This document shows, piece after piece, positions 25,024-27,756 of a stretch of 64,000 bases of DNA (the first letter of the stretch is position 1; each line of letters begins with the position of its first letter). The stretch lies in the NCBI GenBank assembly GCA_017515105.1, contig JAFWHO010000001.1, forward strand, positions 62,001-126,000, given 5' to 3'. The DNA is from Candidatus Saccharimonadota bacterium. Lineage in GTDB: Bacteria > Patescibacteriota > Saccharimonadia > Saccharimonadales > Saccharimonadaceae. The notes beneath the pieces were generated by a model. It saw only the letters and a list, made by a program, of their open reading frames with translations. It made no database searches and was not told the DNA's origin. Both the position numbers and the translations under genes were made by a program.

Positions 25024-25782
25024 ATGAAAAAAGTATTAGCATTTGATATAGACCAAACCTTAAATGTCGCCAAGACCCCTATTACTGACGACATTGCAGA
25101 ATTATTAGTTAAATGCCTCGACCACTTCGAGATTTGCCCAATTTCAGGCCAAAAATTTGACCAATTCTTAGTCCAAATTGTCGACCGCTTGAAAAATCCT
25201 ACCGACGAACAATTATCTCACCTCCACCTATTTGTGGCCCAAGGTACCCAGTACTACCGCTACGAAAATGGCGAATGGAGGCAAATCTACAACAATCCTC
25301 TAACCGACGAGCAGGTCGCAAAAATCACCTCGACCATCGAACAAGCCGCTAGAGAGCTCGGCTACTGGGAAGAAGACAAACTCGCTGAAGGCGACGAAAT
25401 CATCGAAAACCGCCTCTCTCAGGTCACCTTCTCTGCCCTCGGCCAAAAAGCCGGCACCAAAGAAAAATACGCCTGGGACCCAGATTGCAAAAAGCGCGAG
25501 AAAATCGTCGCTCGTTGCAAAGAACTCAGTCCCGAATTTGACTATGAAATCGGTGGCACCACTTCCATTAATGCCATCACCCCTGGCATGAATAAAACCT
25601 TCGGTATGACCCACCTCCTAGAAGAGCTAAACGTCAAAAAAGAAGATGTTCTCTACTTCGGCGACATGACCCAACCTGGCGGCAACGACTACCCAGTTGT
25701 CGAAATGGGCATCGACACCATCACGGTCAGAAACCACGAAGACACCGGCTTCGCCCTCAGAGGTATATTGGGCATATTGTAA
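25024..25782 (+). CDS. HAD-family phosphomannomutase, eukaryotic PMM-like
   Basis: 252 aa, the length of eukaryotic phosphomannomutases (PF03332 type). The nucleophile motif is FDIDQTL (D8, D10) and the C-terminal motif GDMTQPGGNDYPV (about 213-225) closely follows the PMM signature GDKTxPGGND. PMMs convert mannose 6-phosphate to mannose 1-phosphate, toward GDP-mannose for glycans. The cap region (about 85-190) is of HAD type IIB. The gene is leaderless (TGCTATAAT 9 nt before ATG) and its strand is C-rich like other plus-strand genes. A general sugar-phosphate phosphatase is the main alternative; the PGGND loop favours mutase. Confidence 0.75.
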   Translation: MKKVLAFDIDQTLNVAKTPITDDIAELLVKCLDHFEICPISGQKFDQFLVQIVDRLKNPTDEQLSHLHLFVAQGTQYYRYENGEWRQIYNNPLTDEQVAKITSTIEQAARELGYWEEDKLAEGDEIIENRLSQVTFSALGQKAGTKEKYAWDPDCKKREKIVARCKELSPEFDYEIGGTTSINAITPGMNKTFGMTHLLEELNVKKEDVLYFGDMTQPGGNDYPVVEMGIDTITVRNHEDTGFALRGILGIL

Positions 25783-25866: not shown

Positions 25867-27756
25867 ATGAGTGTTTTAATCGTGGGCAACATTACGGACG
25901 ATGTCTATATTAATTTAGATTCCCGTCTCGAACATCTTGAAACCGACAAAAATAACGTCAAATGGCTCGACCTAGCCTTTAACGCTAGCGAGCACCACTA
26001 TTTTAACCACGACAACAGTCTCGGCGGAGCCGCCATTTCCCTTGAAGTCCTTCAAAAACTCGGCGTCCCCACCTCTATTTCCAACTCAAAACTAAATTTC
26101 GACGAAAACACCAACCTATCTGCCGATATCACCCTAGCACATCGCTACATTTTAATCAACGATGACGCCGTCACATATTTTGCCCCCAGCAAATTCAAAG
26201 ACACCATCTTCACTCCCCCTACCGAAATCATCGACTACCTCTATATCGATCGCTCTGCTACCCTTGATTATTCCACCACAGAAGCCATCAAATCTTACAT
26301 CGAAACAAACCCCGACACCGGGCTTATCTTGTACTTACAACACCTCGAAAACCCTTATCTAAATTCCCTTCTCCCTGAGGCCAGCCTCGTGTTTTGCGAA
26401 AAACTTTCGGAAATTAAAACCGCGCCCGAATACAGTAGTAGCCCCTTGAAAGATTTGGACCCCGAAATCATCATCGACATCGCCGAAACCCATCTCGCTT
26501 ACCAAGGCATCAAAGAAAAAATCTCTATCCACAATATCGATATGTTCACCCACTTATCCATCTATTCCATCGCATCAGCCACCGTTCTCGGCTGTTTCAT
26601 CCTAGGCTATTCTGTGGAGGAAAGCCTCGCATTTGCCCGCATCAACCTCGAACATTCCAGCCTAGACTCCACTTTAAGTCTGGAGCAGCTAAAATCACAT
26701 TTCGAATCCTACACGTCTACCGACAACCTCAATCTAATTGCTACTAGCCTTGTTTTGAAACCAAAAGGCATTCTCGCCGCCGATGAATCCGGCGGTTCCA
26801 TCCACAAAAAATTCGAACAGCTAAACATTCCTGACACCTTCGAAAACCGTCGCGATTACCGAAACATCTTTTTTACCACGAAAGACCTCGAAAAATACGT
26901 CAACGGCGTCATTCTCTTCGATGAAACCGCCCGCCAAACCGCCGATGACGGCCAAAATTTCGTACAATACCTCACCGATCGCCGCATCATTCCTGGCATC
27001 AAAGTTGATCAAGGACTCGAAAAATTCAGCGACTCCGCCCCACAAAACGCCCCAGAGGACGCTAAGGTCCACCCTGACGAAACCTGGACCAAAGGCTTAG
27101 ATGCCCTTGATTCTCGCCTCCGCGAGTATTATGATATGGGCCTTCGCTTTACCAAATGGCGCGCCGCCTTTGAAATCCGCCTCGACAAAGATGGTAACAT
27201 CTTGACGCCTACAGATTCAGCAATCGAAATAAACTGCGACATTCTCGCAGATTACGCCCACGAATGCCAAAAAGCTGGCCTAGTTCCAATCGTCGAGCCA
27301 GAAGTAGTCTATGACGGATTTTACACTACTGACCAGAACTCATCCACCACCGCCAAGATCCTCGACTGTCTCTTCCAAAAATTAAGCGACAAAAACGTTG
27401 ACCTATCCGCCTGCATCCTCAAAGTTAACATGATACTAGCCGGCAAACAGTATGAAACTCAGTCTACCCCTGAAGAAGTCGGCGAACAAACCGCCAAAGT
27501 TCTAAAAGACCACGTTCCGGCCGAACTCGCTGGCGTCGTCTTCCTCTCTGGTGGCCAAACCGTCGAACAAGCCACCGACAACCTAGCCGCCGTCACCAAA
27601 AATGGCCCATTCCCTTGGCCAGTCACTTTTTCCTTTGCCCGCGCCCTCCAAGATCCTGCCCTCTACGCATGGGCCGGCGATAATAACAACGCCGATGCAG
27701 CCCGCGATGCTTTCCTCGCCCGCCTCATCGCAAACACCAACGCCCTGAAATCCTAA
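25867..27756 (+). CDS. Degenerate PfkB-type sugar kinase fused to class I fructose-bisphosphate aldolase
   Basis: 629 aa. Residues 1 to about 290 follow the PfkB/ribokinase fold: MSVLIVGNITDDVYINLD, substrate loop NSLGGAAISLEVLQKLGVP, and the C-terminal helix pattern GYSVEESLAFARINLEHS. The catalytic GAGD motif expected before that helix is absent (the position reads DMFTHLSIYS), so the kinase is probably inactive. From about 296 comes a full class I aldolase: GILAADESGGSIHKKF, FTKWRAAFEI, PIVEPEVV, and the Schiff-base lysine in LKVNMI (K519). It cleaves fructose 1,6-bisphosphate to triose phosphates, the substrate of nearby tpiA. Leaderless start (TGCTATAAT, 6 nt). The first domain may sense a sugar or nucleotide; that is inference. 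Confidence 0.82.
   Translation: MSVLIVGNITDDVYINLDSRLEHLETDKNNVKWLDLAFNASEHHYFNHDNSLGGAAISLEVLQKLGVPTSISNSKLNFDENTNLSADITLAHRYILINDDAVTYFAPSKFKDTIFTPPTEIIDYLYIDRSATLDYSTTEAIKSYIETNPDTGLILYLQHLENPYLNSLLPEASLVFCEKLSEIKTAPEYSSSPLKDLDPEIIIDIAETHLAYQGIKEKISIHNIDMFTHLSIYSIASATVLGCFILGYSVEESLAFARINLEHSSLDSTLSLEQLKSHFESYTSTDNLNLIATSLVLKPKGILAADESGGSIHKKFEQLNIPDTFENRRDYRNIFFTTKDLEKYVNGVILFDETARQTADDGQNFVQYLTDRRIIPGIKVDQGLEKFSDSAPQNAPEDAKVHPDETWTKGLDALDSRLREYYDMGLRFTKWRAAFEIRLDKDGNILTPTDSAIEINCDILADYAHECQKAGLVPIVEPEVVYDGFYTTDQNSSTTAKILDCLFQKLSDKNVDLSACILKVNMILAGKQYETQSTPEEVGEQTAKVLKDHVPAELAGVVFLSGGQTVEQATDNLAAVTKNGPFPWPVTFSFARALQDPALYAWAGDNNNADAARDAFLARLIANTNALKS

Follow-up and report, generated by a model that had tools for sequence, protein, structure and literature searches.

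The fusion gene and its surroundings

The window analysed here, a stretch of 64,000 nucleotides, belongs to an 811 kb genome (99% complete) of the Nanosyncoccus group within Saccharibacteria. The organism is a tiny parasitic gut bacterium. A single open reading frame of 629 amino acids, running from an ATG at 25867 to a stop codon ending at 27756, joins a degenerate kinase domain to an aldolase. The features at this locus, with the type of evidence for each, are as follows.

24218 to 24988, minus strand: tpiA (triosephosphate isomerase), divergent neighbour (profile match, synteny)
25024 to 25782, plus strand: gene for a phosphomannomutase/Cof-like HAD-IIB hydrolase, immediately upstream of the fusion (profile match, synteny)
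25867 to 26727, plus strand: pseudokinase domain, residues 1-287, with a ribokinase/PfkB fold and no GAGD, NXXE or DG motif (fold, homology, conservation)
25900 to 25902, plus strand: D12, invariant (99/99), aligning with the sugar-binding Asp of intact kinases (GDIxTDAF) (alignment, conservation)
26143 to 26145, plus strand: R93, in the lid strand (H/Y)RYIL; every pseudokinase has Arg here and intact kinases have Tyr (alignment, conservation)
26248 to 26259, plus strand: D128-R129-S130-A131 loop, invariant or nearly so across the genus, where intact kinases have a YLSLIS-type loop (alignment, conservation)
26548 to 26559, plus strand: T228-H229-L230-S231 in place of GAGD, with the catalytic Asp aligning with S231 (alignment, conservation)
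26728 to 27753, plus strand: class I fructose-bisphosphate aldolase domain (Pfam match, residues 288-627)
27421 to 27423, plus strand: K519, the aldolase Schiff-base lysine (alignment, conservation)

The sequence-only reading had placed the fusion beside tpiA. The two genes are indeed close by, but they are not adjacent, as the HAD-IIB gene, a probable operon partner of the fusion, stands between them.

Residues 288-627 match both PF00274 (E 1.6e-98, 330 bits against a curated cut-off of 22.2) and NF033379 (E 7.7e-112, 373 bits against a curated cut-off of 250). All seven catalytic residues are present (D306, K379, K430, E477, K519, S561 and R592), which we take to be the equivalents of D33, K107, K146, E187, K229 (the Schiff base), S271 and R303 of rabbit aldolase, and they are kept in 98-99 of 99 related fusions. 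The C-terminal half is thus predicted to be a working class I fructose-bisphosphate aldolase, in agreement with its earlier description as a complete enzyme with its Schiff-base lysine. The fused aldolases of three other loci (L028, L030 and L031) carry substitutions (K107R, S271G and KWR changed to KCR) that may mark early decay. The full-length 629-residue model gives the domain arrangement without confidence (pTM 0.63).

Fold, descent and motifs of the pseudokinase half

Domain searches identified the aldolase, whereas residues 1-283 returned zero Pfam or NCBIfam matches. A PDB profile search gave nothing usable, and one of 30 relatives of the N-terminal half matched the PfkB model of Pfam, at an E-value of only 0.19. 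The kinship of this half with PfkB kinases lies beyond family searches and rests instead on its fold and on a profile match. The AF2 model (pLDDT 85, pTM 0.85) has a ribokinase fold with a lid; it matches ribokinase/PfkB-fold structures in Foldseek (1e-10) and reaches VIA Z 20.0 against ribokinase-fold chains (rmsd 3.5 over 251 residues, 3k9e). A profile built from the genus matches the intact PfkB kinases of Saccharibacteria (the type B kinases and intact fusions described below) with an hhalign E-value of 4e-16, and the type A PfkB paralogue at 1e-5 only. A match to a non-kinase family was sought, and none was found. On the strength of the model and the profile comparison, the N-terminal half is assigned to the PfkB/ribokinase family by fold and descent, which bears out its initial recognition as a degenerate PfkB-like domain without GAGD.

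In PfkB sugar kinases, GAGD forms the catalytic and anion-hole motif, and NXXE the Mg/phosphate motif. Among 99 sequences of the genus, T-H-L followed by Ser or Thr occupies the place of GAGD in 98 and T-R-L in one, with position 231 being Ser in 84 and Thr in 15. The NXXE motif, which reads N-R/K-E-E in intact kinases, is missing from the pseudokinases, and the DG motif and the anion-hole glycines are lost as well; the loss of ATP and phosphoryl-transfer motifs extends to all pseudokinase genera. The substrate loop, which had been regarded as kept, survives in part: D12 and G54 remain, but the Asn typical of the ribokinase family is gone along with NXXE. Invariant across the 99 sequences are G7, N8, D12, Y14, E25, D27, W33, F38, G54, R93, Y104, D128, T228, L230, N260 and E262; the assignment of residues to the pocket lining is argued from motif positions in this fold. 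R93 was considered as a counterpart of the Arg with which E. coli Pfk-2 binds fructose 6-phosphate; the sequence registers of the two disagree. D225, considered as a conserved stand-in for the catalytic Asp beside the motif, was rejected because it is present in 90 of the 99 sequences and is not invariant, and the alignment offers no other conserved candidate in the motif region. We infer that the N-terminal half no longer phosphorylates sugar.

Distribution and origin of the fusion

The full-length fusion was found in 140 of the 174 genomes of the genus and is therefore not a chance event. A domain scan of 85,000 species genomes retained 80 loci, all of them in Saccharibacteria records save one titled 'uncultured bacterium'. 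Neither half was found in three genomes at least 97% complete (G260, G017 and G439), where absence, as throughout these mostly metagenome-assembled genomes, rests on completeness estimates; the role of the pseudokinase is therefore not universal.

Two sister genera of the same family (g30 and g151) represent an earlier stage, in which the kinase of the fusion is intact and carries the motif DRTGAGDAF; the intact fusion at L162 matches the PfkB model of Pfam with an E-value of 1.2e-34. These fusions of an intact PfkB kinase with a class I aldolase (L162, L160, L167 and L182-L186) may be bifunctional enzymes that catalyse two consecutive steps of glycolysis. A relative of the intact-fusion kinase, here called type B, is 57-71% identical to it and occurs in many other genera, where the loci read show the operon tktN-tktC-class II FBA-PfkB type A-type B-(LOG-like)-uvrB. 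The type B kinases bear an extension of about 170 aa of no recognised kind, which is N-terminal in the copy at L224:3725-5224; at L234:6398-7654, the same operon position encodes a 418-aa protein that begins similarly.

In the aldolase tree, the fused aldolases form one clade against the standalone aldolases of the order (support 100/99), with the intact-kinase and degenerate-kinase fusions as sister clades. Given this monophyly, a single origin of the fusion is most likely. The kinase tree places the pseudokinases on a branch 3.9 long, beside type B and the intact fusions; a group of pseudokinases and intact fusions was not recovered, and constraining the tree to contain it was not rejected (p-AU 0.163). 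It is the aldolase tree, not the kinase tree, that carries the argument for the kinship of dead and intact fusions. Taken as a whole, the sequence comparisons indicate that the pseudokinase is descended from a PfkB-type sugar kinase of Saccharibacteria.

Loss of the aldolase and retention of the pseudokinase

In 15 genomes of the genus, the pseudokinase is in place and the aldolase half has been lost or has decayed. The pseudokinase stands alone, at about 265 aa, in eight of them (G457, G005, G426, G555, G540, G537, G528 and G456), and the aldolase half is decayed in seven (G545, G488, G557, G441, G476, G230 and G443). An aldolase search of these 15 genomes returned nothing in ten and weak remnants in five. 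The reverse case, an aldolase without the pseudokinase, was seen in none of the 174 genomes, the lone partial match (G561) beginning at a contig end. A further candidate for a gene with the N-terminal domain only (G004) was rejected because the contig ends there. At three loci (L253-L255), the stop codon is followed at once by the apparent end of rplY, with no aldolase remnant, and the loci read without an aldolase keep their arrangement unchanged, flanked by tpiA (or the HAD gene) and, at the opposite end, by rplY. On the tree, aldolase loss takes six changes, three of them forced by well-supported branches, which corresponds to at least three and probably six separate losses.

The HAD-IIB gene itself is present at 63 of 84 related loci, mostly on the same strand and with a short gap, and was not found at six loci with a lost or decayed aldolase (L108, L109, L112, L115, L117 and L118).

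The 24 signature residues of the pseudokinase are intact in 13 of 14 aldolase-less domains, allowing for swaps at D225 and S231 that are conservative and also occur in fused members; one aldolase-less domain has His229 replaced by Arg, giving T-R-L for T-H-L. By the simple NG86 method, applied to few pairs and with some dS values above 1, dN/dS is 0.03-0.09 for pairs of standalone pseudokinases and equally low, at 0.055-0.13, for fused pairs. In one decayed pair, the aldolase remnant has a dN/dS of 0.32 against 0.14 for the pseudokinase; in a second, the two values are close (0.12 against 0.08). Purifying selection on the pseudokinase in genomes where the aldolase is gone or decayed calls for a role independent of the fused aldolase.

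Metabolic setting

The sequence-only reading mentioned that many Patescibacteria are said to lack a standard phosphofructokinase, and the genomes sampled here agree: PFK-A (PF00365) was found neither in the genome of the window nor in 59 of 60 relatives. One relative (L121, genome G058) has a PFK-A gene (E 1.1e-90), in an order that otherwise lacks one. The genome of the window encodes an intact type A PfkB kinase at C3:152485, in the cluster GAPDH-rpiB-rpe-PfkB, which is a candidate phosphofructokinase. The possibility that the pseudokinase itself substitutes for the missing phosphofructokinase was considered and rejected, its catalytic residues being gone and an intact PfkB being encoded elsewhere. 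In Nanosynbacter lyticus, the 'ribokinase' TM7x_02415, encoded beside FBA, has been proposed as a phosphofructokinase and rises with glucose (PMC12815258). Judged by its position, TM7x_02415 is probably the type A paralogue and not the precursor of the pseudokinase domain.

In the sampled genomes of the pseudokinase genera (g1, g28, g32 and g42), no class II aldolase was found and no transketolase scored above the cut-off, whereas both were present in the sampled intact-kinase genera. Where present, the fused aldolase is the sole aldolase detected, and with no transketolase it therefore probably alone connects hexose phosphates with triose phosphates. A sensor attached to such a link would sit at a control point. 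A divergent phosphoglucose isomerase is distributed in the opposite way, present in g1, g32 and g42 and absent from g28 and from the sampled intact-kinase genera.

Possible roles of the pseudokinase

The reading that we prefer, with a probability of about one half, is that the pseudokinase works in central sugar metabolism by binding a ligand rather than by phosphorylation, and that it acts beyond its fused aldolase. A small ligand, probably a glycolytic sugar phosphate or nucleotide, would still bind in the remodelled pocket, and the domain would regulate a partner or serve as its adaptor. That partner would not be the fused aldolase, or not the aldolase alone; where the aldolase is present, it would be one client. 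The first candidate partners would be triosephosphate isomerase, encoded nearby, and the intact PfkB kinase that this genome also encodes, because PfkB kinases pair through their lids. A related proposal, with a probability slightly below one half, concerns how this state was reached: a sugar kinase of central metabolism would have been joined to the aldolase that acts one step later; it would then have ceased to be catalytic, turned into a conserved glycolytic protein with a ligand-sensing or new catalytic function, and later been freed from the aldolase in several lineages.

Neither a sensor dedicated to the aldolase nor an inert tag is easy to reconcile with the existence of standalone pseudokinases. 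An allosteric sensor, in which a ligand in the dead pocket alters the rate of the attached aldolase, would fit the retention of the fusion in most genomes of the genus, the status of the fused enzyme as the sole aldolase detected, and the invariance of the pocket-motif residues. The retention of a selected pseudokinase after aldolase loss or decay, with the aldolase never found alone, makes this explanation unlikely and tells against the earlier suggestion that the domain exists as a sensor or scaffold for the aldolase; nor does the full-length model provide a confident domain arrangement in its favour. The inert tag, whether an aid to aldolase folding, dimerisation or stability or a neutral relic on its way out, could draw on the faster evolution of the pseudokinase half (mean pairwise identity 41%, against 62% for the aldolase half), but the low dN/dS of standalone copies, together with their intact signature residues after aldolase loss, leaves it strongly disfavoured and very improbable.

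Two explanations would retain catalysis. The domain could have become a new enzyme, with a pocket of D12, R93, D128-R129-S130, T228-H229-L230, N260 and E262 and an activity other than ATP-dependent sugar phosphorylation. Its invariant charged and polar residues exceed the needs of a plain binding site, and it persists without the aldolase; however, the motif set matches no known family and the fold offers no related activity as a model, so that we consider a new enzyme distinctly unlikely, somewhat more so than the aldolase sensor. Continued kinase activity, through another catalytic base or phosphoryl donor, is the least probable of these explanations, slightly below even the inert tag. The sugar-side D12 is retained, and ribokinase-fold kinases with unusual donors exist, a PPi-dependent one having been described (PMC5931981). 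Against this stand the replacement of the catalytic Asp by Ser/Thr and the loss of the anion-hole glycines and of the NXXE and DG motifs in the pseudokinase genera.

Relation to known systems and significance

The PfkB/ribokinase family (PF00294), including E. coli Pfk-2 and TM7x_02415, shares with the pseudokinase its fold, sugar-side Asp and lid layout; the pseudokinase differs in lacking GAGD, NXXE and DG and in falling below detection by the family model. To our knowledge, PfkB-family pseudokinases of bacteria have hardly been described, and a literature search, with most subscription papers outside its scope, returned no description of a fusion between a PfkB pseudokinase and a class I aldolase. 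Among eukaryotes, the PfkB-like proteins FLN1 and FLN2 of plant plastids belong to a transcription complex, where their role is not explained by sugar phosphorylation (PMC3409070). With this fold and such a role they resemble the pseudokinase, but they are eukaryotic, unfused and part of a transcription complex, and no specific sequence kinship was found here. Yeast Gal3, a galactokinase-like regulator (PMC3409070), parallels the proposed role, being a sugar kinase without catalytic activity that has been retained to regulate in its ligand-bound form; it has a galactokinase-family fold, serves as a transcriptional switch and is unrelated by descent.

For the fusion itself, the closest comparisons are the IolC-type 5-dehydro-2-deoxygluconokinase/aldolase (NF047869) and the KHG/KDPG aldolase-sugar kinase (NF041633), in which a PfkB-type kinase and an aldolase from one pathway form a single protein. 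These resemble the intact fusions (L160, L162, L167 and L186) but involve other aldolase families and other pathways, with a kinase presumed active, and the operonic kinases found here score far under the cut-offs of both models.

Non-catalytic relatives of sugar kinases and PfkB-aldolase fusions are thus already known, and what is distinctive here is an unusually complete series of stages, with a single bacterial family still holding intact-kinase fusions, dead-kinase fusions and dead kinases alone. Living relatives preserve, within glycolysis, the steps from a kinase to a protein that is no longer one, and they do so in parasites that otherwise shed genes. The series also bears on how upper glycolysis proceeds in Saccharibacteria when a standard phosphofructokinase is missing.
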